From Amphibalanus amphitrite (lineage: Eukaryota > Arthropoda > Thecostraca > Balanomorpha > Balanidae), in the NCBI RefSeq assembly GCF_019059575.1, contig NW_024882308.1, positions 267,915-331,914 on the forward strand: DNA of 64,000 nucleotides, in the 5' to 3' direction. A program made the translations under genes and the position numbers. The notes under the pieces were generated by a model that made no database searches, had not been told where the DNA came from, and worked only from the letters and a program-made list of their open reading frames with translations. Every line of letters starts with the position of its first letter. Position 1 is the stretch's first letter. Below are positions 1,848 to 58,843 of this stretch, piece after piece.

Positions 1848-1851
1848 TTAA

Positions 1852-3028
1852 CCCGCGCCCCACTGGGGTCTGTGTATAACACGCCCTACTGGGGGGGGGG
1901 GGGCTATTCATAGCCCCCCCTCCTAACTCCGAAACTACTGGGCCGATCGTCAAAATTCAAACGGCGTCTGATAGCCCCGGAAAAACTGTCGAGCGAAACC
2001 TAATTTCATTGACCTCGAGGTCACCGATGACGTCACAGGTCAGGTCAAAGTAAAAATTATTAGCACTTTGGCTTGTTCACATTTTGGGCTCTGGCCGCCG
2101 TCTTACAAGTCAGATCAGGCTCATTTTTGGTTTCCACACTCGTGAACAGATGCTCTAGATACCTTGAGGGTACCAAACTTGTACTTTGATTTTCAGGTCA
2201 GGGTCAGGTCATCACAGGTCACGAAAATATTATATCATGCGTCGGTCACGTGACACATGTTTTATGGTCCATTTAGGCCATAGATTTCGAATTTGATGTC
2301 GTCTGTGTCATTCGAGGTCATTTTGAGTCGAATTTAGCTTAGGTCAGGTCACTTTCAGGTCAAAAAAGGTCAAATTTTGAAGTTAAAATTTTCAACAAAA
2401 AAGGTGTCTATTGGATGCAGTTTGAGCTCAGGAACACGATGGTCCCATTTATATTGGTGTACGATGTCAAATACGTACTGAAAAAGTGATTTGAAAAATT
2501 AATAATTGTGAATTGTTTGCAATAATGCGTATAACTTGGCCATATTTGAAGATATTTAGCTAAAACTTGCTAGAGTTAGTCATAATCATGCGTTCTGTCA
2601 CATATGTTCCGGTTTTTTCGAAAAGTCAAAAACTTTTTGAAAAAAATATAAAAATATAAATTTTGAATATTATTATATAAAATTTTCGCAATTTTCAAAA
2701 TTTTGAAAATCCGAGATAGCAGTTTGATAGCGCGGTCAATTCTGAGTCCTTTCATGCAAAGAAATTGGATCTAGCTTAAAAACTGAGCTCTTGGGAGCGA
2801 TTGCCGTGGTTCAATGTTTTGCGTCGAAATCGGACGAACATGACGTCACTCTGACGTCATTTCCGGCCGACCTATGGTAGCTACGAAGTTCAAATTTTGA
2901 CACAAGGTGTCAAATTGATGCAGCCGAAGGTACTGAAAGTTTGGCGTTGATACGTCAAGCGGTTTGGAAGTTATTGCAGAAAAACGGGAGGGGGGGCTAT
3001 AAATAGCCCCCCCCCAGTGGGGCGCGGG
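1852..3028. mobile_element. TTAA-flanked non-autonomous element, CTATTCATAG subfamily
   Basis: The TIRs begin CCCGCGCCCCACTGGGG on the left and end with the complement on the right. TTAA is directly duplicated at 1848-1851 and 3029-3032. Just inside the TIRs are palindromes: a G run, CTATTCATAG and a C run at about 1890-1920, and a G run, CTATAAATAG and a C run at about 2990-3016. The interior has no ORF and many AGGTCA motifs. TTAA duplication with CCC-starting TIRs is typical of piggyBac-type elements, but Kolobok-type also uses TTAA, so the superfamily is an inference. Confidence 0.8.
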
Positions 3029-3032
3029 TTAA

Positions 3033-4810
3033 AGAGGAAAACATCCCATTCAGGGCTGGGAAATCTCTCATACTTTCATACTCCAGTAGGTAGCAGATAT
3101 CGCTTTATTGTTCCATCAATTGTAGCAAAATGAACATTTCTCTCTTCCGTACATCATAAAGAAAAATACAATAAAAACATCAAAATTCGCACATTTTCAA
3201 AATAGAGGTACTACCAGCCAGTGATCTCGTCGGCGAATAAGAGCAAAACATCTCTGTAAGACTAACACAAGTTCAAAACGTCAGCTTTGTGCTCCATTTT
3301 ATGACGAATCTGGCGGCTCTTTGTAGCAGTTTCAATTGTAGCATCACTAATTCTTCATACTCTGAGTCGTGTAACAAAAGGTATCTGCTACGCCTTTTTA
3401 TGCGCTATCTTTTTTATGAATATTGCAAAAAGGAGTTTCATTATTTGTGAAATATTCAAATTACATATTTACGAAACAAAACAAATTGTTTTTAAAGGGG
3501 CATTGTTCAATGATCAATAAAAATACGAAAAGAATCAACTCATTCTGCCCATGGCATCTCTAAAAAGCCATCTTTTATGATACAGTGCCCTGTAACGTCT
3601 TTTATCCTTTTTGATGACGTCATATACAATTTTATTCAGTTTTTAATGTATAATATTGTTAAAATCATACTTATTTGAACCAAATTAGAGTTTGAAAGAA
3701 CTAATGAACATTTTTTGTAAGTTTTATTGAGAAATTGTGTCAAAAATATGCAAATTACGTCATTGCTGCTTGTGTATTTTGTTGATGCATTGTTTCTGGC
3801 GCATTAGAGACAATTCTAGTTGTCGTTTCGCGTGGATAGTTCAGTTGAGTTTGATGAGTGTTTCTGGGTGTTTTTGAATTATTTCAGCTATTTTAGCTTT
3901 TATTTTGCCTCTATTTTGGGGAAGTGGGATATTCCAGGCCTAATTTCAAGTGTTGCAATGACAACTGTCCCTAAAGCGGCGTGCAGTACACAGTTAAAGA
4001 GCAAGGTAGCCGCCCAGCACGCAAAGCAAGATGTGTGAAGATATAGGGAGATACCTAAGATCGATTGGCGCAGAAGGTGAGATCTGATTTAAATATTGAT
4101 CAAGTAACGCCCAGAAAAGAATTTTTTATTTACTTTTTTACATGTTCAATTAATTATTGTATTAACGCTAAACCTTGATTGGTGGCAACTGGCAACTTTT
4201 GTACAGCGGGCTCGGCATGCACAATGATTGTAAATTGTTGACCAGACTGAGCAGCCAAATCAACCTGATTTCTTTCAAATACTTTCTGCCTGAGTAGGCT
4301 GATACAATCTGAATCCTGAAGTTGCTGGAATGCTGATAGGAAAATTCTAGGGATCACTGGAGCTCTCTGGTGCTCTCAGGTGGTGCTGGAACTTGCCCTG
4401 AGAAAGCCCTACAGCACCTTATTTTGATATTTGTATGCTTTTTCTAAACCTGAGTAGTGAGTACCTACAAAGAGTAAAAAATAAGAAAAAGGACATTCAC
4501 AGGGGACATAAGCAAGACACTATCTGTTTTTGTTTGTGCAACCAACTAAATAAAAACATTCAAAGCTCAATTTGAGAATAGATAGAAAATGAAAGTGGAA
4601 AGCTCTGTCCAGAATTTTGATTACTTGTAAAATCATTTTCTCTAGCAGAAATGATGTGAGGAACATTTGTGGCAATGTAGCTAATAAAGAGTTTCTTGTA
4701 TTATCTGGTATGTAGCAGATTCAGCATTTTTCCCAGCCCTGATCCCATTGTTAAAGGATATATGGTGCAATTGACCCCATGGGCTGGTTCAATTGACCCT
4801 CGCATCGGGG
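3033..4810. other. AT-rich stretch, no gene recognised
   Basis: Low-GC DNA with only short frames. No splice-bounded frame resembles a known family and there is no clear repeat structure. Around 4750-4830 are short motifs like those flanking the G/C-tract elements, just before the 153-bp array. Confidence 0.5.
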
Positions 4811-7708: not shown

Positions 7709-10700
7709 GTCAGGTTAAAGTGCTAACATTGATTTAATACTAGGCACCTACTTACCACCTATCCCTGACAATGTAGAAGGTTATTGTCACTCATTTCAAC
7801 ATTGTTTTGAACTCAGGTTAAGATTAAACCTTTACCTATCTAATTGGGTATAAGGGTGTGTCATTTCAATATTTTTCCTCCAATGCTTTTCTACAGTACT
7901 TTCAATACTTTTTGTGTTAGGGACCTTGACTTTTTCTCTCAGATCAAGCGCTCCCACTGATTTGTCTTTTGCTTATGAGGGTGTGTATCATTATGCTACA
8001 TCGCCAACGTCTCACGATTCGTTGCATATGTCTTTTCACGGCAAACATAGAACGAAACATACCCCGCGTTCGATGTCTCTAGGACGACGAAGATTCTACG
8101 TCGCCCGGCCAATCACGTTCCATAACATTAACCTCTATAGTAACCTTATAGAGGGCTTTTATTAATGTCAGTGGTCCATAACCGCAGCCGGGCCCCCGCT
8201 GACCTTGAACGGGATGGCCGGACGGCGTAGAATCTTCGTCGTCTAAGAGACATCGAACGTGGGGAAAATCAGAGGCCGGTTTTACCCGTTTTACCAACAG
8301 AAAAAAGTCGCCTGCTGGATTTTCCTCAACCCGCGCCCCACTGGGGTCTGTATAACAGGCCTCCTGGGGGGGGGGGGGGGGGGCTATTCATACCACCCTC
8401 CCAACTCCGAAACTACTGGGCCGATCGTCAAAATTCAAACTGCGTCTAATAGCCCCGGAAAAACTGTCTGGCGCAACCTACTTTCATTGACCTTGAGGTC
8501 ACTGATGACGTCACAGGTCAGGTCAAATAAAAATTATCGTTGTTTGGCTTGTTCACAATTTGGGCTCTGGCCGCCGTCTTACAAGTCAGATCAGGCTCAT
8601 TTTTGGTTTACACGCTCGTGAACAGCTGCTTTAGATACCCTGAGGGTACCAAACTTGGGGGAGACTAAATGCTTACTTCGAAATCCAAGCTGCGTTGCGG
8701 CATTGGCGGTTATGTGCGGCGTGTATGCCGCATGATTAGTAAGCGGCGACCACTAAATTAAAAACTCAATAGCTTTGACCTGTTTTCAATGGATAACACT
8801 GCATACCAAAAATGACCATCGCTCTCGTCATTACGGAGCGAGCGAAGCGAGCGTAGTCTTTCCTTAGATTAACGGAAATTTCTGAGTATGAGCGGCCGGC
8901 CGGCCGTGGTCACGCTTTTGCGAGGCTTATATCTCAGCAACCACTTGACCGATTTACATGCGGTAATTTTTGTAGGGTAGCTTCATTCCTTCTACCAAGT
9001 ATTGGACTATTCCCGATGCATGTGGGTGACCCCTTATGCACGTGCCACGTGCAAAACGAAGAGGTGTCACTTTTGCAATTGTTGCAATATCTCGGTAACT
9101 ACTTGGCCGATTGCGCTGAAAGTTGGCATGTAGGTAGGCACCCACTATGCAATGCATATCCATGTGCCAGAGTTGGGGTGCTGCTGCACGTGCGCACGTG
9201 CAGGGGTCGATTCCAGATCTCGAGAACGGCTGGACCGATTGCGCTCAAATTTGGTACACGGTTACGGAGCAGTTAGTAGGGTGCCGTGCAAAAGTCAGTT
9301 GGGACCCATTTTGCACGTGCGCACGTGCAGGGTGCCGCTTCCAGATCTCGAGAACGGCTGAGCCGATTGTGCTCAAATTCGGCACATCGCTAGAGACCGG
9401 TTAGTAGGGTGCCGTGCACAAGTCAGTTGGAGGTACCCCCTCGAAATTTTGCACGTGCAAGGGTCACCCTCTCGCCCGCTCCGTTAGTCGCCCCAAAAGG
9501 CGTTATACTGGTAGGATATTTAGATTTAAATAACTAACTTATCTACATCATCGTTTTGAGCCAAATTAATACTTTCAACTTGACCCTCGCCCGTATTGGT
9601 GTTTTTCCAGCCGCGAACGTATAAGGTATAACCCCTTGCCGTTTCGCTCCTGATCAAGCTAGAGCTTCGCGGAAAAACGAGCGTGTTGCCCGTGACGAGA
9701 GGAAGCCGATGATACCCAATTTTAAGGTCCTAGGTCATCGGTTGACCTTCCAGGTCAGGTCAGGGAAAATTGGGACCTGTTAGAACGTCGTAGTGTGGCT
9801 GCTATGGGTTTTTTTCGGGGTGCTGATCACGAATATCATGCTAGTTTTGATCACAGATGTTTTCATTCATTTAGGCCTGGTCGGGTCAGGTCAGGTCAGG
9901 TCAACCAGTAGAGGTCCTGCCGGGTATTTGTAGTAGGTGTCAACCGCCTCTGACAGCCTCGTAACATGTTACGAAGGCACCAGAACTACTTTGTAAACGT
10001 TCATGTGGCTGCTAAATTCGAATTCAGTTCGAAAAACTGGCCTAGAAACATGTCAAACTCGAAAAAGTGAACCGAGGTCACCAAAGGTCAGTGACCTGAC
10101 CTGACCTTCAGGTGACCTTGACACCCACCCTAATGCATGGGGCAACATCATTACGGAGCGAGCGAAGCGAGCGTAGTCTTTCCTTAGATTAACGGAAATT
10201 TCTGAGTATGAGCGGCCGGCCGGCCGGCCGGCCGGCCGGCCGTGGTCACGCTTTTGCGAGGCTTATATCTCAGCAACCACTTGACCGATTTACACGGGGT
10301 AATTTTTGTAGGGTAGCTTCATTCCTTCTTCCAAGTATTGGACTATTCCCGATGCATGTGGGTTACCCCTTATGCACGTGCCACGTGCAAAACGAAGAGG
10401 TGTCAGTTTTGTAATTGTTGCAATATCTCGGTAATTACTTGGCCGATTGCGCTGAAAGTTGGCATGTAGGTAGGCACCCACTAGGCACTGCATATACATG
10501 TGCCAGAAATGGGGTGCTGCTGCACGTGCGCACGTGCAGGGGTCGTTTCCAGATCTCGAGAACGGCTGGACCGATTGCGCTCAAATTTGGTACACGGTTA
10601 GGGACCGGTTAGTAGGGTGCCGTGCACAAGTCAGTTGGGACCCATTTTGCACGTGCGCACGTGCAGGGTGCCGCTTCCAGATCTCGAGAACGGCTGGGCC

Positions 10701-13700
10701 GATTGTGCCCAAATTTGGCACATCGCTAGAGACCAGTTAGTAGGGTGCCGTGCACAAGTCAGTTGGAGGTACCCCCTCGCAATTTCGCACGTGCAAGGCC
10801 CACCCTCTCGCTCGCTCCGTTAGTCGCCCCAAAAGGCGTTATACTGGTATCACATGTTTGAACGCTTGAAACTACGAAAAGACTGCAAACGCGCTGCTAA
10901 TGCGAGCCGACATACGCTGAATCGCGGTTCCGGCCAAACATGGTCTCGAAAAGTAGGTCACAGGTCAAAGGTTATTTGCGTCAGGGTCATGAAATTTTCA
11001 GGGTAGGTGTAAAATTGATCAACGCGAGGGTACTAAAAGTAACGTCGTGATCGGCCGCTTTTTACGCGAGTTATTCGCGAAAAACCGAGGGGAGTCCGTT
11101 CGACCCCCCCCCTTAAAGGGCGAGGGTTAACTGACAGTCAGAACTCCGAACAAGTTCGGTCTTGTTTGTGAATTTGTCGGAGCATTACCTAAATCTAGTA
11201 GAGATGATGGAGGGAAACTAGGCTTTTAAGGAAGGAAGGGGGTCGGTGACGGTCAGGGGCACTACAAGCAGAGCAGTCATAAGCTGGTGACAGGGCTGAC
11301 ATACCATGTTTTGATAGCATGACTGAAACAGACTTTTTGGGTAGCCAGGAAATCGCATGCGAGAGCCTATTGAAATTCTTACATCGGCCTTTATATGCAC
11401 CAGTCGTATACAGGTGCGGGATTTGGCATACGATTTCCAGACAATCGAAAGACTGTTTGGAGCCAACGAAGGAAGGAATGAGTGAGTACTAAGTTGAAAG
11501 CATTAATTTGGTTCAAAATGATGATGCAGATAACTTAGTTATTTAAATCTAAATATCTTACGACGAGAGCGATTGGCATTTTTGGTATGCAGTGTTATTC
11601 ATTGAAAACAGGTTGGAGCGTTTAAGTCTTTAATTTAGTGGTCGCCGCCTACTAATCATGCGGCATACACGCCGCACATAACCGCCAATGCCGCAACACA
11701 GCTTAGATTTCGAAGTAAGCATTTAGTCTCACCCCCAAACTTGTACTTTGATTTTCAAGGAAGCGCCCCCTGCACGTGCGCACGTGCAGTAGCACCTTAA
11801 CCGCAACACATGGGATTGTATTGCCTGGTGGGTGCCACCTGTATGCCAAGTTTCAGCGAAATCGCCCCAGTAATTACCGAGTTATTGAAATGGGAACAAA
11901 TTTGGCACCTCTTCTTTTTGCATTTTGCACGTGCAGTGGGGGTAGACAATCGCCCAAGCGGCTGCTGAGATATGAGCCTCTCAAAACCACTGCTTTTGCA
12001 AAACAGCTTGAACACCCTTGACTTTTCACGTGGCACGTGCCACGACGGTCATTGAGACGTATCAAAAGTAGTTAATTACGGGGTGGAAGGGATGGGGCTA
12101 CCCAGCAAAAAAGACCGCAGGCCAATCGGTCTAGCGGTTGCTGAGATATAAGCCTCTCAAAAGCGTTACAGGCCGGGCGTGGCCGGGCCGCTCATACTGA
12201 TATTTTTTCGTTATATTGAAAAGAATCACTTCGCTCGCTGCGCTCGCTCGCTCGTAATCATGTGACGTCATTGAAGGTCACCAAATATTTTTTTTTTGCT
12301 TATAACTCCTTACAGGTTCGAGATACAGATGCGCGGATGGGCTCATTGTGCTCAGCTCGTCAAGGCGCATCGAATGATATATGATGACCTTAGGTCACGT
12401 GACCTAAGATCAACTTTTGACTCTGACCTTTTGAGGTCAACATACATATGTTTCGATGCGGATCGACGAGAGGATCGCGATGGTGTTATTAGTTTGTTCC
12501 TAGCTGAGATACTGTTAAACTTATTCGAGAAAAATTCATATATATGTAGTGCGCTATTTCGACTTCCTTTTTACCCCTGTGACGTCATCTTTGACCTGAC
12601 CTGAAAATGACCTCAGTAAAAATTGTAGACCTATCCGTGTGTACCCTGTGCCGTTTACCGCTTGTCGCTATATCGCTTTGTTCTCGAGATCTCGCTGTCG
12701 CACCCGCTCGTAATAATGGACAAGTCAAATAATGACCTGACCTGAGGTCAACGCAGGGCGATAGCCACTTTTATTATCGCATATAAATGACAAGTGATAA
12801 GGCTTTAATAGTCAACAGACGAAATTGCAACTTTCAGTGGGGAAACTGTCAAGGTCACTCTTCGAACAATAGGTCAAAAGGTCACGTGATCAAAATTTTA
12901 AAATTGAACATCCGAGCTAGCCAAAATGTTCGTTTGTTGATTGAGATTTGAACCATATACAGTTGTCAGTTTTTATCATAGAAAACCAATAGTTTCTGAG
13001 TTATAAGCTGCCAAACATAGGGTTGCAGCGTGACCTCCAGGAATTGCCCGAGGCTATATATCGGAAACCGTTGTTCGAAGAAAAAAAAATCTTGCCACAG
13101 TTGGTTTTCCCGCCCATCACAACCCCTTGGACCAGTTTTAAACGAAAAATAAAATACGTGGGTGCAGATTTAGGTTTTTATTTGTCGATCTGTCGTGGAA
13201 CGCCCCCTAGGAGTATGCGTGTTAGTTAGGAAGTTATAAATTGAGCAGATGAAGTAGGAGACAGATACTTTTTAGATGCTTGTTTCCTAGAAATACTGTC
13301 ACTGCTGTCTCATTTTTTACTCTCTTTGTTTTTTCTCTCCAGGGTTTGGCCTAGGTGGAGCTCTGGGTCTCTTCACATCCAGTGTGAACCCATCAATAAC
13401 TGGAGCTGAATTGAAGAGTCAGACTGCAAGAGAGGTATCCAGTATCCTGGAATAGTTTGGAGCTAATGCATTAGATCAATTATGGATTAAAGAATGTCAG
13501 GTCAAAATGGCGGTTCTGCATGTTAGCGCACATTTTCCATGCGTTCCCAGACTTTCTTGTGATTAGAAACGTGCCAGCATGTGAAATTATGCTTGCCCCA
13601 TCAGACTGGTGTTTGATTCATCTGTGATTGAATCGATTGGATTGAATCAAACAAAATTTGTTGAATCAAAAAGGTTTGATTCACCGTCAGGATTGTTTGA

Positions 13701-16700
13701 TTCACAAGCCCTGATTGAATCAAACGCATTGGGAATCAGGGTTGATTGAATCAAAAAAATTAATGATTCATGAACTTAAAAAAAATTAAAGTGAGCGAAC
13801 ATAGTTCATTATCAACAAATATTAACACTTGTTCAATTACATGACAACAAAACGAACACAACAAATACAATACTATCCCTGATATTTTGTATATTTTATT
13901 TTTTAATTGAATCAAAAAAGAATCATTCAAAAAAAAAAATTGGCTGAATCAAACGCGAATCATTCTTTTATTGTTTTTTGATTCTCTGAATCAAAAGGAA
14001 TCGATTCACCAATTTTTTTAAGGAATGAAACGGTGATTGAATCAAACAAAAATCAAATGAATCAATGATTGAATCGATCCAAAAAAGGTGAATCAAAAAC
14101 CAGTCTGTGCTCCATATGTTATGATGGATATCAATGTCACTTTAAGGCAGGGCTGCGGAGTCGATGGATTTTCGGCGACTCCGACTCCGACTCCGGCTTT
14201 CAAAAACCAGCTCGGACTCCGACTCCGACTCCGGGCAGAATTGTCGACTCCGACCGACTCCAACTCCGACTCCGCAGACCTAGCAGGGCTGCAGAGTCGA
14301 CAGATTTTCGGTGACTCCGACTCCGACTCCGGCTCGGGTTTCTAAAATCGACTCCGACTCCAACTCCGACTCCGGTCACAACTGTCGACTCCGACCGACT
14401 CCGACTCCGACTCCGACTCCGACTCCGCAGCCCTGCTTTAACCCGCGCCCTGCTGGGGGTCCTGGATTTCCACGCCCTGCTGGGGGGGGGGGTGTTTGAA
14501 CACCCCCCCTTGTAACTCGGCTCCTGGGCCACGTAGCGATACGCGGAAGGCGGCGTTCGAAAGAGCGTAAAAAATAATGACGAAATCACTTCGGTCAATT
14601 TTTTGGTCAGGTCAAAGGTCAGGTCACCAGAGGTCATTGAAGGCAAAATTTCGCCGATTTCCAGGTCGAATGTCGAAAATTTCCAAGAAGCCAACGCATA
14701 ACTCGGGAACCAATAGAGCTACAGCGCCGCGGAAAAGCGCATTCGATAGCCCTATTAACGCCCTTTCTGAGTAATTCTCTCAGATTTGACCTAACGTCAA
14801 CGGTTTTGCCTGCAGGGGGCAAAAACTGCAAAAATAACCGATTTTTTCGAAAACAGTTTTTCTGCAATTACTTTTGACCCAAGCCTTGTACGAGCTTACT
14901 TTTACCGGCATCGTGTTCCTCTCGTCAAGACGCATCGAATAAACTATAACTTGACCTTGAAAGGTCAACTTGAAAATTTGACCTCAGGTCAAGGTCATGA
15001 CCTGACCGGAAAGGGTCATGTTGCATATCAGTCGATCCGTATCGTCGAGCTGAACACATCTAAGTCGTTTTCATCGCTCTAGCATGCCTCTATCAAAAGT
15101 TATTTGCGAAAAACTGTTAGATACCATTCGTGACCTAAGATGACCTCAGGGCATAAACAAGGGTCACGGACACCATTTTCAAGTTCAGTGTGTCTAAACC
15201 ACTTGTAATTCGGTGTTTGGGAGTGTTTATAATGTCAATCATCCAAAAGAGGCGCATTTCAATTTTCTCCCATTGACTTATAATGGGGAGGTCGCAAAAT
15301 TGACCTGACCTTAGGTCATCGATATCAAAATTCTGAGATATACATTTTGTACATGCTATTGCTCTTAGCTATCGCTGAAAGTTTCAAAGCGATCGGTCAC
15401 TCGGTGTAGCTATGACAGACATTGAAATTTTTTATGAGGTGAGGTCACTTCAAGTGACCTGGTGACCTGACCTTGAATGACCTTGGTCTGAAATTTTCAC
15501 AACATGTGTAGAATTGATGTATGATAAGGTGTACCAAAAACGGCGGCGCTCCGCGCCGCCGTTTTTGAGATATTCGCGAAAAACCACAAGGGGGGGTGTT
15601 CAAACACCCCCCCCCCAGCAGGGCGCGGGTTAAGGTCAGGTCAATGTAGTTGACCATAGCTAACCTCAGTCAACTTTTTCTAGTTTAACAACTTTTTAGG
15701 GTAGGTATGTTTTGGAGCTACCTGATTTTAAATTTCGCACTCATTTGAACGTCTGGAAAAACTAGTTTGGGGCGCCAATGCAAAATGCTGCGTAGTGAAA
15801 ATACAGATTTACCTACTATGGGTACTAAGCTGGCGGGATGCATGATATTTGACCGACTCGACTCACCTGACCGGACCAGACGAGATAGCCGTTGGCAGTT
15901 TCCAAAATGTTGAAATAGTGAACATTTTACCTTTGGTGACCTATGGTGACCTGACCTTTGACCTGACCCAAAAAATGACCGAAGTATTTTCGTCCTTATT
16001 TTGGGCGTTCTTTCGATTGCCGCTTACCGCGTGTCCCTACGTGGCCCAGGAGCCGAGTTAGAAGGGGGGGGGGGGTGTTCAGACACCCCCCCCCCCGGCC
16101 CGGCGCGGAATCTCAGAGCACCGGCCCGGCGCGGGTTAAGATTAGGTATCCTCGGATTCCTGTCGTCACGGACAAAACGCCCGTTTTTGCTGCGAAATTC
16201 CAGCGCGATCAGGGGTCGATCGATTGGATGGTGGTGGGTTTGGGAGGGGGGGGGGGGTGGACGGTCCAACGCTGGGCTGCGGAGTCGATGGATTTTCGTC
16301 GACTCCGACTCCGTCTCCGGGGTCTAAAATCGACACTGACTTCGATTCCGTCTCCGGTCAGAAATGTCGACTCCGACTTACTCCGACTCCGCAGCCCTGG
16401 TCCAACTGGCCCCCTCCCCCTCTCCCCCATCCGGTAATGGCAGGGGTCGACAGCCTACGTCCCGCGGGCCGAATCCGGCCCACGAACCATCGGACATCCG
16501 GCCCGCGGCCGGTATCAGCAATCAACATCGTGTTCTGGCCCACGGTTCTCTAAAAAATAAACTTTCTCCGTACCAAAGTGACTACATATAAGTGTGTGTT
16601 GGCACAATATTTCTTCCTACACACATTTCATATGCCTAGAAACAGAATGATAATATAGAGGCGAGCTGGTATATGATCACATTATAAAATAGATGCAAAC

Positions 16701-19700
16701 ATTCCTTCTATTTTTAAACTCGCCTCTTCCTTCGTCAGAGTCCGTCTTAACCCTATAATTAGTGGCAGGCTCCTGGCTACCCCTATTAGTGGCAGGGGGG
16801 GGGGCTGTTTACGACCCCCCTTGATATCTCGAGATCTAACCGGCCGATTTTCAAAATTCAAACGGCATTCGATTTCGCTCAACGTGATCTACATTTCTAA
16901 AAAATAAAAATTAAAAAATGTCAATAGGGGGGTAGAGGGGGGTAAAAACGGGCAAATTGCAGATACATTTTAGACTGTTTATCACGGCCAGGTTTCTGAA
17001 CCAATCTTAACGCAACTTTTGCCGATCGATAGAGAATGAACCAGGAATTCACATGGATCCTAAAAATATGCATTTTCAAAAATCATAGGCGGATACAGAT
17101 CATTGAGATTGGGGGTACACAAAAAGTATAGTAAATAAGGTTTTTGTTGGTACTGTTTCTAAAAAGGGTGGTAATGGTCTTATTATGTTACAATTTTCTT
17201 ATGAGAGAACGACTACAATTGTATTGGTCATCCATAGGCGGTGTCAGGGCACCTATGTTGGGAGGTAAAACATAACCCCCTTTTTGGACGCCTGGATCCG
17301 CCTATTATAGCAAAAACGTGTCAAAAGAGGATGCACAATAACTGTATATGTTATCACATGATACCTTTCATTCACTGTTCGTAAAACTGGTGCAGCATCG
17401 TGATCTTCGCCCAAATGACTCGCTTCACGAATAGGACCCCCCAATTCCCAGTGCTCTGGAGCCGCCCCTGGTAAAGTTATGAACTTGCGGACTGCCGACT
17501 GCTTCCAAATCTCATATCCGGCGCGCACCCAAAAAAAAGGTAACCGACCCTTGGTTAATGGCAAAAACGCCGATAGGGCCGAGTGTTAAAAATGGAGGTT
17601 TTGTTCTCTCTTTATAAGTGCATCCATCGTTCACATACCGGGTGGCCCAGAAAAAACGTTCCCAATTTTAAATGAACATTTCTCAGAAAGTGATAAAGAT
17701 ACAACATTGAAACTTCCAATAGTCAATGTGACATATATTTTCAGTGAATGGTATGATTTTCATGTTATTCGGTCAATTACTTTTTAAACGGTTCTTGTTT
17801 CTAGCATGCCATGTAAAAATCACTTTTTTGCTCTGATGTTTACCAAAAATGTGAGTGAACGGGCCACTTCCATCTCGGCACCACGGCCTACAGCCATGAC
17901 TGCTACTGGCAACTAGTCTCATTGGTGGTTAAGGCCTCAGGGTGACACATTCCCTCTAGCTTTTTTCCTTATTCGGTCGATTTACTATTTGATCTTCTTG
18001 AAGGGAGGGCGATCAGCAGTAACCCATGCACCGTGCCACTCGGCTTCGCCTCGAAACAGGACTTGTGTTGATTGTTGAAACGAATGGCATCCATTAACAC
18101 GACTTTGGCTTAGTATTTGAATATTTGGCACATAAGTGTGACAAATTAAAATATCTAAAATAGCAACACGCGCGCTGGTATCATTCACGTTGTTCTATTT
18201 TTTGTATTTTTCTAACATGGTACGTCTAAGCCAATCATTACTTCCGTTCAACAACGGCAAAAAAAGCAAAAACGTCTTACTTAATTCAACATAAGATTGC
18301 TGGCTTGAAAATGATGGTACAGTGTTATAATTTGGCATACCAATGCGCAAAGAAGTGACGCAAACCTGATGAAAATTTTGGCTCGTTATGTGCACTCGAA
18401 TTTGAGATATAGGCCTCCAAAGTTCGGAACGTTTTTTTTGGGCCACCCGGTATATACGTAATGTCTGCATTATACAGTTTCTCAGTGGCTGCTCCATTTG
18501 AGACTAGTGCAATCATTTAATGATTTTGATCAGATGTGCATGAATGCGAGTGATAGAAATATGATTCAATGGATCTCAAAGAATCGACAAAGTTTTCTGA
18601 TCCTATTGGGTCCCATGTGGAAAACATGTTATGGATGTATGATTTCATAGAATCTGACTACATACCATGTATGGGGATCTGTGATTCGAGTGTATCCCAA
18701 CACACATAACTTGTGAAGCCATGTTTTCAGGTTGTTCTTTGTCCGTAAGTGCCACAAAATTATGAATAACGATGTGCGATCACATAAGGTCCCTAGAACG
18801 GCACTATTGCGAATTAATAGTTCCTTGAGGACTTCTGTCGACGAAAATTAAGTAACAATCCATGATCTCATCGGATCTCTTGACAAAAATAGATCTCAAT
18901 ATATGATGCTAAACAGATATCACGACAAAAGAGAGAACTGGATCTTTGATCACACTAGATCTGATGTGAATATGCGAGGGATCAGATCCCAGATCCATTT
19001 TCACGGTTCTGTCCACATGGCTGATTTAGAGTTAACCTGTCTTGTCGGTCCCCCTATTCATTCAGTGCAGCATATTTTTGAATTATGGCTTATGCGTTAT
19101 TCACTGGCACTGTTACCATGGAGCTCGTGTGCGCACTGTACAGTGTACAATGTGCCTGGTGAATGGTGATATAGCTGAATCGCTGCCACCAGGTTCTGGT
19201 AGAAATGCGAACAGCCATGCTGCAGTATGCCAAGAACTTTGGCATGATCGGTCTCATGTTTGCTGGTGTGGAGTGTTGTATAGAATCGGTGAGTATGGTT
19301 ATTGTGACTGCACAGTGCACAGTATGGTGGCATGTGTACTGTGAGTGTGTTGGTTGTTTTAAAGGGATTGCCAGGGTTTGACGAACTGAAAGGCATGGGC
19401 CTGTTTCCGCTATTGTTGGATTGCTCAAGCACTGCTGATTCTAATGATATGTAATAAAAACTTCTATAGTTCGTTTTTTTTTAGTTCGACCCTCACTGTA
19501 ATCGTCTTTTTGAACACAGCACGGGAATTGCTAGCGTCGGCGCACATCGATGTCACAGACGATTAACTTTATTCAAAATTATTTCTTCCTAGCTTCTATT
19601 TCCCAGACTCGTAGCTTGTATTTGCCTATATATACAACCCCACAGGGATAGACAACTTGTCAGGGGTGGTAACTGAACTAATTCATAAATCGCATTTCGT

Positions 19701-39935: not shown

Positions 39936-39968
39936 GAGAACGAACAGCTAATGAAGCTCACACCTTAA

Positions 39969-41035: not shown

Positions 41036-41039
41036 TTAA

Positions 41040-41502
41040 AATATCTACTCGCTCACCAGTTTATTTGCCAAATAGCGTTCTCAAAGTTGTCCTAATTTAT
41101 CGACCGCACCCTGTAGTGCCCTGAACCCTGAAATTGGACTGTTGATGACCTCTGGTGACTTGATTTTCCCCCAACCTAAAAAATGGCCGAGGTACTTCCT
41201 CATTATTTTTGACGCTCTCTCTAAAGTCGAGGTAGAGGGGTTTCAAGCTCCCTTCCCCCCCCCCCCCCCTCCTACGATCCGGCGCGGTGGGCGCCGATCA
41301 CCGGCCTGGCACGCTTTTGTGTGTGTTTCTTACTTAGCTACATTAGGTACCTACTGTAAAGAGAAAAAGACTGGCTGTTAGCGGCGAATGATTTTTAGAG
41401 CGGAATTTTGACGAAAACATGCTCCCGATAAATTGGCATTAGATATATTTTTGCGCAAAAAAGAAGATAACATTTTGGCACAATACTCCCAATGAATTTT
41501 AA
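41040..41502. other. No gene; transposon end fragment
   Basis: Around 41140-41300 the words AGGTACTTCCTCATTATTTTTGACGC and a C run followed by GGCGCGGTGGGCGCC are a remnant of a G/C-tract element end. The rest is unassigned. Confidence 0.4.
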
Positions 41503-41981: not shown

Positions 41982-42059
41982 TTAAGGAAATACCAAATTT
42001 CCCGTCGTTAGCTCAAATCGTTTTTCGTGCCAAACGAAGTGGAGGATTTAGCGACTTAT

Positions 42060-42961: not shown

Positions 42962-42965
42962 TTAT

Positions 42966-43771: not shown

Positions 43772-44427
43772 CTACTTGCTGCTCAGCAGGTCCTCGCCCT
43801 CGATTCCCAGCTCGGGCTCGTGCGAGATGCCCGAACCCTCGGCGTCGTCGAGTGCCGCCTCACCGGACGCTTCCAGCAGCAGCGGCTCAGAGGTCTCGTC
43901 TAGACTGACCCGTCGACCAGATCCCTCCACCGCGTCAAAGGCCACTTCGCCAGACCCCTCCAGGGCGAAGCGCAGCTGCTCGCTCGCGGCTCCGTCGAAC
44001 TGGTAGTCGGCGCCGGATCCCTCGACAGCCTCGGCGTCGTCCTGTGCCGGCGCGCCGGACGCCTCGATCGGCTCCTGGAGCGCCGCGGTGCGGGCAAAGT
44101 CGGCCACGACGCCGGAGCCCTCCACGTGCTCGGCGTCGTCGGCGACCACGCCGCTGGCCTCGATGGCGTCCTCGTCGAACACCAGCTGCGCAGCAAACGA
44201 GTCGTCGTCAGCCTCGTCGGACTCGTCAGCCTCGAGCCCGCTGCCCTCCGAGTCGGCCTCCTCCTCTTCAGACTCGGCCTTGGCCTCCTCGGCGGCCTCA
44301 TCAGCGGCCTCTTCGGCCTCGTCAGCGGCCTCTTCGGCAGCGGCCTTCACCTCCTCGGCGGCCGCGACTACTTCCGGGTCGTCGTCCTCGGGTTGGTACG
44401 GCTCGGCCGCACCCTGCGGGAACTTGC
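43772..44427 (-). CDS. VWC/Ser-Gly protein exon 4 (acidic tail and stop)
   Basis: Encodes the last base pair of Gly118 and residues 119-335. The acceptor is GCGTTTCAG. It contains all nine E-(G/A)-S-G sites and ends LGIEGEDLLSSK. Codon use is strongly GC-rich, so antisense and shifted frames also stay open; those are ignored. Confidence 0.82.
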
Positions 44428-47033
44428 CTGAAACGCGCCAGGGCAGACGTCAGGCATTGCGGTTTAGAACGGTTGTGGAATGCGGATGACACGTAATGGA
44501 CAGTAAAGATGCAGGCGCACAGTGTGCGCCTGCACTAGTGCTCGTGTGTTTGTTGAATAAGATTCTACGCCCGCTGAGCTGGACGCTAGTCCACGAGCTC
44601 AGCACGGTGAGACAGTGGGCTTTCGGAGAGTGGAACTGCGGGGACATGGTTCGGGCGGTTGTGGCGCCCAGGACGGCCCACCGGCAGGCCGACTAACCGA
44701 GCGAGGCGCAGTGGTCGTAGCTGGGACAGCAGAGGCCCGCCAGGTGGCGCGGCTCACAGTCGTCCCGCACGATGCACTGCAGCGCCGTGCTGCGAACGCT
44801 GCCGCCCACGCAGAAGCGCACTGCGCACGGATCGCTCGGGTCCTCGATCCGACTGCCATCCTCGTACGTTTCGCCGTTGTGATAACAGGCTGAAACGACC
44901 GCGACAATGGAGACGTCTGGTACACCGTCTTGGAACTACGTCTCGCCACCTAGCGGGCGCCGTTCGAAACACGACAGCTACGACGATATATATTGATTTC
45001 GACAGGTTCTCAAAATGTTCTTCTTTTCCTTTCGGCTTCACGCAAAAACTAATAATCCTCCAGATTCTATTAGCAACATAAGCAAAATTTTCGTCGAAAA
45101 TTAAAAATTTAAAACCTTTACACATACCTACCTAAATGCTGTTTAGTCCTCTCGTCGCCAATGGAAAATCATTATATATAATATAAACGGGCCATTCTTA
45201 GTGTCCGGATGCTAGCAAAGATTATGAAGTTCCAAAGAATTCCAAAGCATTTTGGGATGGTTGTTATGTCATATGGCATTTCGGCAGAGAAGAAGTGCTC
45301 TATATCGTCTCTCCTCCGCATTATACATATGTACATGGGTGTGGTAGTGGGTACCGCTGAGCTCCTTCGCTCCAATGACCAATGCCGTCATTCCGATGCC
45401 CAATCAAAGATCCGCGGCTGTTAGGTGTTGCTGGCAACGGCAGTCGGATGTCGTGGTCATGCGCGATGCTCGCCGGATTCCACACACCCGGTGTATCTTC
45501 TCCAAGCCATGTTACATGCAGACCTCCACAACCAAGCTGTAGGGTGCATGCGGATCTTGCTGGGCGTGCGTTTCAGACTTTGGCCTCCCAGAAGCGCCTT
45601 CTACCAAAATGCCCCATTTCGAATGCTTATTCCTACAAAATATCTCGCGTGGGTGGCTGCTTTTTGCTTTTTGCGCGGGGAATAAGGGCAAGTCAGGGAT
45701 GCCTTCAGTATGGTCGCATACAATAGTTGAGGGATCAATGTAGCTACCTACGCGAATTGGGGGCTCAGTAGCGCCACCTACACCAGTTGAGGGATCAACT
45801 TGTCGCTACCTACACTAGTTGGGGGTTCAGTGTCGCCACCTACACCAGTTGAGGGCTTAGTAGCGACACCTACAGCAACAGTGCTGAGAAATTCATATGC
45901 CCATGGCTCAGTTGCGCCACCTTAACTATCCGAGTTTTCAGTGGTGCCATTTGCATGGTCTCATGGTATTCATGGTATTGTCAGCGTGTCCCGCAGAAAA
46001 CCGCCAGCCGACCCTTGGGTGGACGGCGCGGATAGCTCGTGCTGCTGCTGGCCAACCCGAGCTACGGGCATGGGTGCATAGTTTAGTACGTGTCAGTGGG
46101 CGCCGTCGGAGCGCGCTCACGGCGACCGGCGCGCGCCGCTCGGCCGCAGCCCGCCGCGCCAACGGTGGCTCGGCTCACCCGGTGACCGCGGTCGGAATCA
46201 GTGTGACAGGAGGTCACTGGTCAGTTGGGAGAGAAGAGACAGCAGTGATCACAACAGCCATGGGATTCGGCGTTGGAAAGTGTTAATCTGTTCCTGTTTA
46301 TGTTTACTACCGTACATGTTAAAAAGCACACATTTCTTATGTCTGTACAGTTGTTAGTATGCCGACATTTGTTTACCATTGTACCGCAGCAGGCATTGTG
46401 ATTTTTACATGGTGAGTAGGAGGATGCGGGAAGGTGATGCTAAGAACAAACCTAACTGCCTGGTCGGCAGGGCGGTGGGCAGGGAGGGTCGGCCGCGGCG
46501 CGTGCTCTCTCACCTTCTGCGCTGTCCGTGACGTCATGAACGGTGGCCTCGATGGTCGACGGGCGCGCCATCGGAACTGGAACCGAGTCGGAAACGACGG
46601 TCAGCGGGGCAGTCGACACTCGGACAACCATCCTCGTGCAGCAGCTCACGGGACAAGACCTCTTCGGTTCCTAATTACTAGTGAAAACACACTCGCGGGG
46701 GGGGGGAGTGCCCTGGCGCCCATTAAGGCGGCCGACTTCAGCCACTTGGAAAATGAACTAAGTAAGTCTCTTGAGTCTTAAGACTGTACTACTTTAATTA
46801 AAAATATATGAAAACTTTGAAACCTAAGTTTTCGGAAATATATTTACTAAAGCGGCCAACCACCTGTTTGAGTAGGATATATTTATTTAGACCTCATTTT
46901 TGCCATTATCGAACTGATATCGGCCGAGCAACTTAACACCAAGATGAGCCGCGGCCCACCTGGGGCTGAGGTCGTTACCTGCGAGGGTCGTGGCGGCCAG
47001 CGCCAGCACGAACAGAACTCTGAAGGAGGCCAT
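43772..47033 (-). CDS. Secreted VWC-domain protein with nine acidic Ser-Gly sites (candidate proteoglycan core), 4 exons
   Basis: Exons 47033-46979, 46618-46514, 44889-44698 and 44427-43772 join in matching phase (all phase 1) into 335 aa. Residues 1-18 form a signal peptide (MASFRVLFVLALAATTLA). Residues 55-114 form a VWC-like domain starting CYHNGETYEDGS, with eight cysteines (55, 75, 80, 92, 98, 107, 108, 114); two of the usual ten are missing after GGSV. The tail is very acidic: an Ala/Glu-rich stretch (139-175), then nine E-(G/A)-S-G motifs with serines at 180, 209, 222, 241, 255, 276, 287, 305 and 316. Acidic residues before Ser-Gly are the known signal for xylosylation and glycosaminoglycan attachment, so a chondroitin or heparan sulfate proteoglycan is inferred. 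VWC domains often bind BMP-type ligands or matrix. No orthologue name is recognised. No transmembrane segment or GPI signal is visible. Confidence 0.8.
44698..44889 (-). CDS. VWC/Ser-Gly protein exon 3 (VWC-like domain)
   Basis: Encodes residues 54-117, the whole cysteine domain from CYHNG to CASL. Acceptor CGTTTCAG, donor CTCG/GTTAGT. Being a single phase 1-1 exon, it is a classic shuffling module. Confidence 0.82.
44890..46513. other. Intron 3 of the VWC/Ser-Gly gene
   Basis: No exon recognised. It contains a tandem repeat at 45722-45880 (listed separately). The region 45980-46260 is GC-rich with several open frames, but without splice-supported coding sense. Confidence 0.45.
45722..45880. 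repeat. Tandem repeat, unit about 36 bp, four copies
   Basis: Copies of CACCAGTTGAGGG / CTAGTTGGGGG-type units with GCGCCACCTACA spacers. Units are diverged and the period varies by a few bases. Confidence 0.65.
46514..46618 (-). CDS. VWC/Ser-Gly protein exon 2
   Basis: Encodes residues 19-53, the first part of the mature chain (VSTAPLTVVSDSVPVPMARP onward), which is Ser/Thr/Pro-rich and might be O-glycosylated. The acceptor (TTGTCCGAG) is weak, but it is the only nearby one that keeps the frame from exon 1. The donor is GAAG/GTGAGA. Confidence 0.65.
46979..47033 (-). CDS. VWC/Ser-Gly protein exon 1 (signal peptide)
   Basis: ATG followed by ASFRVLFVLALAATTLA, a clear signal peptide with a short basic start, a Leu/Val/Ala core and Ala before the cut. 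The donor is GCAG/GTAACG in phase 1. Confidence 0.8.
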
Positions 47034-54923: not shown

Positions 54924-56745
54924 TGATTACGAGCGAGCGAGCGCAGCGAGTGAAGCGAACTCTTTTCAATATAACGGGAACATCTCAGTGTGAGCGGCAC
55001 GGCCCGGCCCGGCCTGTAGCGCTTTTGAGAGGTTAATACATATCTCAGCAACCGCTGGACCGATTGGCCTGTGGTCTTTTTTTGTGGGGTAGTCCTTATA
55101 TTCATTGGCTTCTATACCCTTAAATGACTAGGTAGGGGAAACCCGGGAGGTATGGGCCCCCTGGAGGTATGGGCCATCGCAGTTTTGAAGAAGTGTTGCG
55201 TATTTTTACACATTTGACCGCGCAAACTGGTAGCAGCCATTCCGTTATACAACCCACGTGATTTCCAAAAAATTCCTCAGTCTTCTTTGGCAATGAGCGG
55301 TGATGAAACGTTTTTACCCTCTTCGAGTAAAATACGGTACGTACAGAAAATTCGTGATAAATTTGACCCAGGCTCGTTTTATGGTATCAGACCATCGGTA
55401 ATATAAAGTTTAAAGCATGCAAATTAAGACTGGATAGACAATTTGAAGTTTTCTTGCAAGATTATGAGCTGAGACGCTCCGCACATTCTGGCGTCCTAAC
55501 CGGGAGGTTCGGGCCACCCACCCCCGTGGATCCTAAATCAATGAAATGATGCTTTCATTGAATGCCCTCTTCAATAAGTTTTATTTTTGTCGCGCAAGGT
55601 CGAAAATATAACTACAAATTTCATTCGAGCAGAAAAATATTATTTATCTTATTTCATGGAGCATGAATGCGTTTACCAAAATACATATGTGCCCACGTGA
55701 CCCCCATGAAGTAAGCTGTTGGCCACTTATGCGGTTCCTGGGCTCTAAGAGAGATCAAGGTAGATAACAGCTACAAGTATTGTTCTCATTATCGAGAGAA
55801 GAATATGAAACATGGCACTGGCCCATACCTCCCGGGCCATGGCCCATACCTCCCGGTGCATTTTGATGGATCGAAAAAGCGCATGATTTATTTAAAGTTA
55901 TCTCGAGACAAAATAGTTGATCCCAGATGCCTAATATCGGGCACACTTTGCAGGCGAAAGGCAATTTCACGTACACAGAGTGAAAAACCGGGTCTAACCA
56001 CTTCCCACTGGAAGAAAACTGCCTTTTCACAAAACCGGCCCATACCTCCCGGGTCTCCCCTACTCTTGATACTTTTCAGGGACGATCATGTCACGTGCCA
56101 CGTGAAAAGTCAAGGGTGCTCAAGCTGTTTTGCAAAGTATATTTTTGAGAGGCTCATATATCAGCAGCCGCCTGGGTGATGGTCTTGCGGTAATTTTTGT
56201 AGGATAGCAGCATCCCTTCCACCAAACGTCGGATACTCTTGATCTATGTGAGAGACCCCACTGCACGTGCAAAATGCAAAAAGACGAGGTGTCAAATGTG
56301 TTCCCATTTCAGTAACTCGGTAATTACTGGGGCGATTTCGCTGAAACTTGGCATACCTACAGTAGGCACCCACCAGGCAATACATTCCCATATGTTGCGG
56401 TTAGGGTGCTACTGCACGTACGTACGCACGTGCAGAGGGCGTTTCCAGATCTCGAGAACGGCTGGGCCGATCGCGCTCAAATTTGGTACACGGTTGGGGA
56501 CCGGTTAGTAGGGTGCCGTGCAAAAGTCAGTTGGGACCCATTTTGTACGTGCGCACGTGCAGAATGCCGCTTGCAGATCTCAGGAACGGCTGGGCCGATT
56601 GCATTCAAATTTGGCACACCGCTAGCAACCGGTTAGAAGGGTGCTTTGCACAAGCCCGTTGGAAGTAAGTATCCTCTCGCCCTTCCGCACGTGCAGAGCT
56701 CACTATCTCGCTCGCTCGTTCTTCGCCCAAAAGGTGTTTTACTGG
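54924..56745 (+). mobile_element. Helitron-like element, copy C, with a nested insertion
   Basis: It starts TGATTACGAGCGAGCGAGCG and ends with CGCCCAAAAGGTG, TTTTA and CTGG before T. It shares with copies A and B the blocks CAGATCTCGAGAACGGCTGG and GGGTGCCGTGCAAAAGTCAG, and contains CACGTGCCACGTG at 56096 and GTACGTGCGCACGTGC at 56545. The nested element 55134-56060 enlarges it; without that it would be about 0.9 kb. Non-coding. Confidence 0.65.
55134..56060. mobile_element. TA-bordered inverted-repeat element, GAGGTATGGGCC family
   Basis: The left end is GGTAGGGGAAACCCGGGAGG and the right is the complement of TAGGGGAGACCCGGGAGG; TATGGGCC follows in both. Comparison with copy D of the Helitron-like family (about 12060) shows the empty site without this sequence. 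GGAGGTATGGGCC words recur several times near both ends. No ORF. Confidence 0.65.
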
Positions 56746-57661
56746 TACTATTTGAGATCGAGCTGCCTCCTTTTTCTACGCTTCAATGTTGGTGGTGAAT
56801 TGCCTGTTAAAAAAAAAGAGAAAAAAACACACACAATCCATGCCATTTGCCTCGCTATTCTGCCTTGCCACGCCGCTTTTTATGTCAGTCTCCGGGAATC
56901 GCTCCTCCATAATTTTAACTGAAACAAGCATAAAAAGAGCGGGCTTTGGGCGGGTTTTAGTCCCTCGAGAAAAAGCCGATGCCTTTATAGCCAACTACTG
57001 TGTCCTCCCATTACCTCAGAAGCCGAATGGCTGGGCAGCTATTTATTGCCATAGCGGGTTTAACGCCCCGACAAAACCACCATCGGATGCGTAGAAGCCT
57101 TTCTGGAGTGTGATCCAGGGTCGAGGAAAAACGCGGGGTGCCCTGGTGGGAGGCGGCACGTCCAAATACCTGCGATATGTCGCCCTGCCGACGCCGTAGG
57201 CTGCCGCTGCCACCATATCTGACGGAAAGCAGTCTAACGAAGTTCCGCCATCATTTTGACCGTTTGATCCCATTGTTATAATCTGAACTGGCAGCGGTTC
57301 GTCTGCCGAGCTTTAGCATTCTCGGGTCCTTTGTTATGTGTACTACTTGGGCTCTCGTTGAGTTTTGATACGAGTCTGTGATAATTTGTGATTTCAAGAC
57401 TTTTCAGATGTTATCAGTTATCACCTACCTATCAGCGTTGATATGAGTCTCTGGACTTTCTTTTTTGTTGGAGTTAATGCTAAGCTATTTAAAAGCTACC
57501 GGAAAATGCTAACTACAAATGCTGAATGGTGCTGTATTCACCATTCACCTACCTAAAAACAGGCTTTAGGAGCTTGTAGTCTTTAATCAGCTGGGTTCGT
57601 TGTTTGCACATTTGTTAATGATCAATTCGTAAAAAAAGTTTGTTTGTTTGTTCAGTTATAA
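56746..57661. other. No gene recognised
   Basis: Unassigned DNA with short frames only. The segment 56880-57060 is open in two frames but shows no domain or splice support. Confidence 0.4.
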
Positions 57662-58839
57662 CCCGCGCCCCGTAAGGGAGGCCGAGACGCCCCCCCCCCC
57701 CCCTGTCCTTCTCCGTCCATATCTCCTAAATGACTGCAGATATCGTCGCCAAACTTGCAGGAACCCTCCGGGCATCAATTTTACATATTGTGACCAAACA
57801 TTTTCCCAGAGACTATGATAGGTTGGCCGCAAATGACGTCAAAATGGCGTCATGTTCTGCCATTTCCGACCCAAAAAAGGTTTCACGGGAAGAGCTGTCA
57901 GGCCTACAGCTTTGAAGATACAGAAAAATGATGAAATATAAAAGGTGTAGAATTAACAGGGCTATAAAACTGCTGTCTCGGATTTTTGAAGTTTTTGAAT
58001 TTTGACCCCCAAAAATCTTTTTGGATATAATAGCTGGAACATTCCTAAAGTTTTTCGAATTTCCGAAAAACCGGAATATATATGATAGTCCCTCCCACCT
58101 TCTATCCACATACCAAATTTGAGATTGATACTTCTTCTTTTTGGCCAAGTGATAGCGAAAAAAAAAACTTCAAAAATGATGACGTCAAATTTTCAAACTC
58201 AATTTTTGGCAATTCTAGACCACGTAGCGCAAAACAAAGACAACCCTTAGACTCCCCGTGACGAGCTGCATCGAATCGATACCAATTTTATGCAAATATA
58301 TCAACTTCGAAATGTGACCTAATTTGACCTGACCTTGACCTGACCTTCGCCAGAACATAATCTTAACTGGCCCCAAAGGCTGCCTGACCCACATAATCCC
58401 ATTTGTCATGCAAAATGGACCCTAAAACATGTGTCACACGACATTTTCGGTATTGTGACCCTCAGTGACCGGACCTCAGTGACCTGACCTCAGTGACCTG
58501 ACTTGGTATCAAATGTCAATGACCCCAAATAGCAAAATATGTGTCTTACGAACAATTCCCCCGTCGATGATTTTCAATAACATGCCTTTTACTTGATTTT
58601 ACGACACATTTTTTGAAATGCCTGTAAACGGTGAAAATTCGATCTTTGACTTGATTTGTGACGTCATCGATTGGACCGAGGTCAATGAAATTGGGTCACA
58701 AGGTAGCTCCGTAGTAGGGCTATCCAACGTCTTTTGAATTTTAAAAATCGGACGGTAACTTTCTGAGATCTTAGGGGGGGGGCCAAAACGGCCCCCCATA
58801 CGGCTGGCAGGGTCCGCCAATAGCCCTACGGGGCGCGGG
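57662..58839. mobile_element. TTAA-type element, CCCGCGCCCCGTAAGGG subfamily
   Basis: The left TIR CCCGCGCCCCGTAAGGG and the right CCCTACGGGGCGCGGG are complementary with small changes. TTAA follows on the right (58840-58843); the left target is ATAA. Near the ends are GGCCGAGACGCC with a C run and GGCCAAAACGGCC between G and C runs. AGGTCA motifs (as TGACCT) cluster at 58315-58510. A fragment of the same subfamily lies at 545-760. Confidence 0.75.
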
Positions 58840-58843
58840 TTAA

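Follow-up and report, generated by a model that had tools for sequence, protein, structure and literature searches.

Probable piggyBac-superfamily miniature elements with subfamily-specific, end-matched palindromes in the genome of Amphibalanus amphitrite

The window analysed here is a 64,000-nucleotide stretch of the Amphibalanus amphitrite genome (RefSeq assembly GCF_019059575.1, contig NW_024882308.1, positions 267,915 to 331,914 of the forward strand). It contains many copies of short non-coding elements that, judging from their ends, are very probably miniature inverted-repeat transposable elements (MITEs) of the piggyBac superfamily. Eight copies have both ends, a ninth has one of its two ends decayed, and about 12 partial copies are also present. 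The elements were mapped by reading, self-comparison and a profile search; the profiles were derived from the same window ends, and thus most profile matches arise by construction. Element size is 0.9-1.2 kb, and the longest ATG-initiated open reading frame (ORF) is 38-103 aa (11 elements of known length).

Each complete element has a long end and a short end, and both carry a core between a G-run and a C-run. The element E1 (1848-3032) has its long end at 1848, with core CTATTCATAG, and its short end at 3032, with core CTATTTATAG. The elements A1 (14438-15633) and A2 (36616-37811; 97% identical to A1) have TGTTTGAACA at both ends. In D1 (39965-41039) the short end is on the left and the long end on the right, with TCGGATCCGA at both, and the cores of D2 (42056-42965) are CGTTAAACG and CATTAAACG. 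The match is imperfect in C1 (27643-28530), where TCGAACGGA in the short end at left and TCCGTTGGA in the long end at right are near reverse complements, and in B2 (57658-58843), where CCGTTTTGG in the long end at right faces a decayed CCGAGACG in the short end at left. B1 (29526-30701) is two-ended and decayed, with a short-end tip and target that are unrecognisable; its body is 84% identical to L060, a CTATTTTTTG element of the host genome. The ninth copy, C2 (9580-11130), has core TCGAACGGA in its short end at 11130 and a decayed long end near 9580.

Four copies (E1, A1, A2 and D1) are bordered by TTAA on both sides. Other direct repeats are ATAA/ATAA at C1 and TTAT/TTAT at D2, and B2 has a mixed ATAA/TTAA pair; on one side of B1 and of C2 the target is unrecognisable. 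The four bases are a target duplication, because the ATAA and TTAT direct repeats cannot belong to an inverted repeat, as palindromic TTAA could. The window elements thus display the 4-bp TTAA target duplication that is a hallmark of piggyBac. A preliminary description of this DNA, made from its letters alone, had assigned a TTAA target to the whole family; this holds for the four copies and fails for C1 and D2. All of the cores that it named are present in the window. Of the positions it gave, 1852, 14442, 36620, 39969, 42060 and 57662 mark element tips rather than cores, and 27660 adjoins the start of a hairpin. The cores are found at 1904, 14493, 36673, 40003 and 42085, and at 58781 in the right end of B2.

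Sites of the form G5+ N6-13 C5+ occur 17 times in the window, against a mean of 0.3 and a maximum of 2 in 100 dinucleotide shuffles, and a chance origin was rejected on these numbers. All 17 are mapped element ends, and one site of opposite polarity (C-run first) is present. The short end is ordered as target, tip (mostly CCCGCG), a roughly seven-base motif, G-run, core and C-run. The long end is ordered as tip, motif, spacer, the motif again, G-run, core and C-run. Summed over 12 long ends, four of them A-type (E2, A2, G and C2 were left out), the self-match peaks at 84 at an offset of 27 bp, compared with a maximum of 65 in 400 shuffles. When the 16 long ends are considered one by one, the best offset is 26-28 bp in 12 (P<=0.02 in 7 of the 16). 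The centre of the core falls within bp 24.5-31.5 for seven of the eight short ends and within bp 53-59.5 for eight of the nine long ends, and the two ends outside these ranges have an extra-long G-run or T-run. The asymmetric ends, with a repeated motif and a palindromic internal repeat, agree in both layout and spacing with those of the piggyBac element of Trichoplusia ni.

Facing bases are complementary in 42 of 68 pairs across 15 core strings of the window (cut out by hand, with near-variants counted separately), versus 17.6 in shuffles. By string, eight have at least three such pairs and seven have two or fewer. This dyad symmetry is beyond chance; therefore most intact cores read as palindromic sites. 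Single-strand folding of 12 strands is predicted at -10.3 to -19.1 kcal/mol (z -1.7 to -3.8), although up to 11 of 200 shuffles fold as well as the tested strand and one of the 12 hairpins does not use the core. Such folding follows from the same dyad symmetry and says nothing about use. The earlier suggestion that the G- and C-runs could form hairpins holds as predicted folding and no further; structure alone would not demand a sequence shared between ends. We consider it improbable that the palindromes act as hairpins, cruciforms or G-quadruplex/i-motifs with an irrelevant core sequence: the folding energies and the symmetry of the 15 cores would suit such a role, but it needs neither the same core at both ends nor the accompanying motif outside the hairpin, and some other piggyBac families of this genome (L009, L035 and C531) have a palindrome at a like place and no G-runs.

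Cores are matched between the two ends. Seven two-ended window elements were compared, with the cores cut out by hand and A2, a near-duplicate of A1, omitted. The true pairing of long-end and short-end cores is the best of 5,040 permutations; within this test the decayed B1 pair is mismatched and B2 contributes little. We then have the host assembly, of 807.55 Mb in 2,644 contigs, in which a strict short-end pattern has 8,035 forward-strand matches and a reversed-pattern control has 0 (on the reverse strand the count, 23,546, is too high because matches overlap within the C-run). A first look gave 2,424 genome candidates for A1. The 40 that were scored, window copy included, are all nearly full length and 98-100% identical, which places movement of the A1 element in the recent past. 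At eight A1 loci (L001 is the window copy) TGTTTGAACA is found at both ends, in one case with an extra GT adjoining.

Among the first 62 distinct short ends listed, all from contig C1 of the assembly, eight intact core types can be distinguished, besides three odd ones. None of their motifs is paired with two intact core types. The TGTTTGAACA core is paired with three motifs (19, 4 and 1 ends), and therefore the motif can change alone. Inward sequence was followed for 29 of these short ends and led to a partner long end in 26, of which 25 were found by script and L063 from its hairpin; for L051, L073 and L077 no partner was recognisable in the inward sequence examined. The core type is identical at both ends in all 26 elements, which represent six types (12 TGTTTGAACA, 5 TAAATTTTA, 4 CGGATATCCG, 2 CTATTTTTTG, 2 CTATTTATAG and 1 CCATTTTGG). 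Small differences occur within types: the long end reads CGGATGACCG in 4 of 4 copies of the CGGATATCCG elements, and in one of the two CTATTTATAG elements the short-end core is shortened to CATAG. Free shuffling of left and right cores, named beforehand as the observation that would speak against end-matched cores, was seen in none of the 26.

A comparison of nine subfamilies, one element each (36 pairs), leads to the same result. Inside an element, long-short identity is 0.79 for the motif and 0.92 for the core. Across subfamilies both fall to 0.45-0.51, versus 0.44 and 0.50 in shuffles, and for neither did any of 20,000 permutations match the ends as well. Tips are 0.88-0.91 identical across all subfamilies and are uninformative. 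The 100 bases inside the C-run are 0.65 identical for the same end across subfamilies, 0.59 for the two ends of one element and 0.57 when shuffled; these inner flanks thus show the reverse trend, end-specific instead of element-specific, in a less pronounced form. The window permutations, the 26 genome elements and this comparison all bear out the view that cores are subfamily-specific and, apart from C1, B2 and the decayed B1, the same at both ends. The matched unit was first described as the core; it also includes the motif, of which the short end has one copy and the long end two, with the core as a palindrome placed as in piggyBac. We refer to motif and palindrome together as a cassette.

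In 6 of the 36 subfamily pairs the whole bodies are colinear, over 60-86% of the query (threshold 60%), and these pairs fall into two groups. One group has four cassettes, CCATTTTGG, CTATTTTTTG, CTATTTATAG and TAAATTTTA (for example, 1,017 of 1,186 bp and 926 of 1,187 bp aligned), and the other has two, CGGATATCCG and TGTTTGAACA (780 of 1,009 bp). The remaining 30 pairs align in part, close to the ends or over short internal segments, or not at all. In the window, the short end A5 (34290-34668; core CGGATATCCG) is 73% identical to the short-end region of A1 over about 380 bp, with motif and core replaced. Within the two body groups, by alignment, the non-coding elements are continuous with one another except for the cassette, which is different at both ends, an arrangement that we consider new. 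Selection, end-to-end gene conversion and different autonomous parents are all candidate causes of this matched replacement.

Gene conversion between inverted ends, or template switching, would homogenise the ends without selection while cassettes drift in each lineage. The cassette is the main stretch common to both ends and thus the place open to conversion; between the two ends the inner flanks show little likeness (the 0.59 versus 0.57 above). Conversion tracts would need to be short, however, given that the tips beside the cassette are end-specific and common to D1 and D2 (CCCGGCA at the long end, CCCGCGA at the short end), while their cores are element-specific. In this pair the motif is not clear-cut, and inner flanks are alike at the long end only (0.70, versus 0.56 at the short end). 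The stable long/short difference of the CGGATATCCG subfamily also argues against conversion. On balance we regard this explanation as possible, at somewhat less than even chances. Also tentative is our suggestion that long-lived non-autonomous lineages switched transposase repeatedly by rewriting the whole code (three motif copies and four palindrome half-sites) with their bodies kept, and that nine or more orthogonal end codes coexist.

The window has 85 ORFs of 105 aa or longer, counted stop to stop; 33 of these were searched against Pfam, and no transposase was identified among the 33. In the genome, a PF13843 profile search gave 116 piggyBac transposase matches, and the flanks of 37 were inspected: the first 30 loci and seven further ones, three of these on one side only. 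Own ends were determined for 12 of the first 30 loci (both ends for nine, one end for three), and these have CCCATTAGTGCC-, CCCTTTACCGGG- or CCCAGATCTGCC-like tips without a G/C hairpin. The other 18 were scanned for hairpins and TTAACC only. No convincing pair of ends was recognised at L011, L012, L020, L033, L034 and L036. The G/C hairpins at L020, L022, L028 and L031 were rejected as own ends, as they look like those of neighbouring or host MITEs; at L028, a piggyBac of a 604-aa family is apparently inserted inside a MITE with a GGCCATTTTGGCC palindrome at both ends. The single inspected side of C42 has no G/C palindrome.

G/C palindromes are own ends at three further matches, C527, C44 and C171. 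The first is an intact element (C527:290214-294184) of 3,971 bp with TTAA on both sides and an uninterrupted 674-codon frame between non-coding ends of about 1.3 kb and 0.6 kb. Its long end contains core TTGTTACGA and two copies of the motif ACGACCAGG, at bp 8 and bp 35, and its short end has core TTGTATCAA; the palindromes are centred at bp 29 and 58, and the 27-bp motif offset is as in the window MITEs. A 589-aa part of the protein matches PF13843 (1.8e-69), T. ni piggyBac (1e-76) and piggyBat (2.9e-30). The three catalytic Asp are aligned with those of T. ni piggyBac. The C44 copy has both ends with TTAA and was assigned by these ends together with its PF13843 match. The C171 copy has a long end with a mutated target, and no second end was found in the 351 bases where it would be expected.

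A 948-bp MITE abuts the intact element, short end to short end, sharing one TTAA and the same cassette. It is 90.6% identical to the element's ends over 392 bp and 91.2% over 317 bp, and looks like a deletion derivative of it. A DDE_Tnp_1_7 transposase with the catalytic Asp triad inside such ends was encountered for the TTGTTACGA cassette only. For that cassette the transposase-to-MITE link appears closed; for the others it rests on shared architecture. This derivative would also fit the proposal that each MITE subfamily is a separate internal deletion of a different autonomous piggyBac and that cassettes record the parents. The non-coding ends of the intact element suffice to build a MITE, and 30 of the 36 subfamily pairs do not share whole bodies. 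Nevertheless, in the six colinear pairs, which have no long ORF, the separate deletions would need like endpoints, and we think it rather unlikely that separate parents account for the subfamilies.

Either a piggyBac-like or a Kolobok-like autonomous relative had been envisaged in the preliminary description. A piggyBac with the same end architecture is present in the same genome, and the tips disfavour Kolobok. Mobilisation by Kolobok, Sola3 or another TTAA-targeting superfamily would account for the target, but Kolobok termini are described, in the part of the literature compared, as RR next to TTAA, whereas no mapped tip starts with two purines and nearly all are CCC. The sole transposase seen inside such ends is a piggyBac, although no search was aimed at Kolobok or Sola transposases. 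We give this alternative very little credence.

Six other piggyBac families of the genome were compared (L009, L010, L013, L019, L022 and L035). A perfect 20-bp palindrome lies near bp 24.5 in L009, and L035 has a strong one near bp 24.5 on one end and another at bp 55.5. L022 has a weaker palindrome near bp 26 and a 10-of-12 segment common to both ends at a 27-bp offset; the best shared end segments of the other five families are at other offsets. No palindrome was found near the tip in L010, L013 and L019. A further match, C531, has GGACATTTTTGTCC near its tip. The G-/C-run frame sets the present lineage apart from these other piggyBac families.

Several observations weigh against the assignment of the window elements to piggyBac with transposase-matched cassettes. 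The autonomous partner of the commonest cassettes (TGTTTGAACA, TAAATTTTA and CGGATATCCG) was not seen in the flanks of the 37 transposase matches inspected, out of 116, and at several of these matches the flanks are without recognisable ends. The two cores of the intact element match only partly (TTGTATCAA and TTGTTACGA), and its similarity to the window subfamilies is short and mostly in the palindrome; the alignment with C1 (74% over 74 bp, E 4e-4) spans the palindrome and a few dozen flank bases. Four of the 16 long ends have their best offset elsewhere (E2 at 23, A7 at 31, B1 at 33 and C1, whose spacer contains a T-run, at 33). In most subfamilies the tip is CCCG, versus a published hallmark given as CC[C/T]T in the source compared; CCCT is found in C, F and the autonomous element.

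Taking these points into account, we remain confident that the elements are non-autonomous piggyBac-superfamily MITEs in which motif and palindrome form a recognition cassette matched to the transposase. For the matched cores the best reading is the palindromic internal repeat known from the superfamily, which makes them candidate transposase sites. In the mechanism we propose, the short conserved tip (mostly CCC...) adjoining TTAA would be cut, and the motif of about 7-9 bp with the G-run/core/C-run palindrome would be the recognition cassette, present once at the short end; the long end would repeat the motif 27 bp further in, like piggyBac LE35/RE63. The solved piggyBac complex suggests, by analogy, that the transposase core may bind the motif and that a dimer of C-terminal cysteine-rich domains (CRDs) may bind the palindrome. 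In that case the sequence read by the transposase in use would be needed in both palindromes and in every copy of the motif. Subfamilies would then be lineages with different cassettes, each differing at both ends together. We infer that the CRD binds at the core, that transposases of this clade also serve the other subfamilies, and that the coordinated change is driven by selection for a match with the transposase. The earlier idea that cores are end-recognition sites fits both the core matching and the autonomous piggyBac with the same ends, and the alternative reading as pairing tags is not supported. What is unusual is that so many cassettes coexist and that, on homologous bodies, they are replaced in a matched way.

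Partial copies are distributed across the window. Long-end pieces include E2 (8326-8657; 90% identical to E1, core CTATTCATA, with the following base altered), A3 (15924-16139; core TGTCTGAACA, motif CGGGCC), G (21333-21395; a tip fragment with an E-type motif and a decayed core), C3 (30995-31231; C-type tip CCCTCGCC), the remnant A6 (41103-41317; core AAGGGAGCTT) and A7 (59998-60234; hairpin decayed). The long end F (16747-16979) has tip CCCTATAATTAGTGGCAGG and core CTGTTTACGA, and no partner end was found within the window. Its tip is like the CCCATTAGTGCC tip of the piggyBac families L013 and L022, which are without a G/C hairpin. Short ends are H (31440-31640; core ACAAATTGCA, of poor symmetry) and the fragment I (33920-34001; tip CACGCG). 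An A-type body with a short end and no long end, A4, lies at 28547-29266 (core TGTTTGAACA), and a remnant with short-end flank homology at 547-1101. The long/short asymmetry and the ends at 8326, 9580-11130, 16139, 16747, 21333, 31231, 31440, 33920, 34290, 41317 and 59998 are additions to the preliminary description.

Other features of the window include a repeat of about 700 bp with copies at 8828-9513, 10148-10849 and 56143-56747. The copy at 10148-10849, unrelated to the MITE, splits the C2 body relative to C1, and the empty site is visible by comparison. Protein kinase gene stretches at 35930-36595 (testis-specific-kinase-like) and 38328-38654, on the minus strand, flank A2, which probably lies in an intron of the kinase gene. 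Protein kinase was matched in two of the 33 searched ORFs, and matches to GIY-YIG and Tim17 were below cut-off. An inverted repeat at 24387-27445 (98% over 3 kb; 1.1-kb arms separated by 70 bp) has one long ORF per arm and the weak GIY-YIG match; it may be Penelope-like. Also present is an acidic ORF at 43772-44449 (minus strand) with repeated EGSG/EASG motifs and no Pfam match. By its contents (the kinase-like gene, the inverted repeat and many repeats) the window is animal DNA. An Rfam scan gave nothing at gathering scores, and exact end patterns gave 0 loci in collections of viral contigs and genome contigs.

The piggyBac transposon is widely used in genome engineering. One genome with many related cassettes, in which the 27-bp geometry is constant while motif and palindrome vary, is in effect a mutagenesis of the recognition code carried out by nature. 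Should the codes prove orthogonal, they would be a source of transposon ends that do not cross-react. How MITEs follow or switch transposases becomes directly testable, and the genome provides a natural experiment in the lasting match between transposons and their enzymes. The asymmetric ends of piggyBac were termed puzzling by those who solved its structure, in the part of their account compared (PMC7351741), and the two solved elements of the superfamily are described as recognising unrelated palindromes. No description of G/C-framed palindromic piggyBac MITEs was found in a limited open-access literature, judged by titles and abstract openings.

Among known TTAA elements, the Xenopus T2 MITEs of the Kolobok type are similar in having many long-lived subfamilies; as far as their description was compared, they differ in AGGRR termini and transposase superfamily (PMC6004289). 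The CMITEs of Acropora corals are piggyBac-type TTAA MITEs with an internal region more conserved between families than the terminal inverted repeats (TIRs), as here. They differ in length (about 100 bp), and one family shares its TIR with an autonomous element; subterminal palindromes or long and short ends are unmentioned in the part of the description compared (PMC2872659). The piggyBat element of Myotis lucifugus belongs to the same superfamily and has a motif followed by a palindrome on one end; unlike the elements described here, its right end is without a palindrome, according to the excerpts compared (PMC11707139; PMC13405395). The C527 transposase is nearer to T. ni piggyBac than to piggyBat (1e-76 versus 2.9e-30).

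The closest likeness is to T. ni piggyBac. In the portions of its descriptions compared, the right end (RE) is distinguished from the left end (LE) by an inserted stretch and a duplicated motif, RE bp 34-63 is almost a repeat of LE bp 7-35, and the LE palindrome is at bp 17-33 (PMC7351741); identical 19-bp palindromes at both ends, asymmetrically placed, are the site of the cysteine-rich domain (PMC7351741; PMC11707139). The elements described here share with LE35/RE63 the TTAA target, the CCC tips and an arrangement of motif and palindrome at one end versus motif, insertion, motif and palindrome at the other, with an offset of 27-28 bp (PMC7351741, as far as compared). The C527 transposase resembles that of T. 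ni over most of its length, Asp triad included. Unlike in T. ni piggyBac, the palindrome is framed by a G-run and a C-run, its core is subfamily-specific, and at least nine cassettes are found in one genome.

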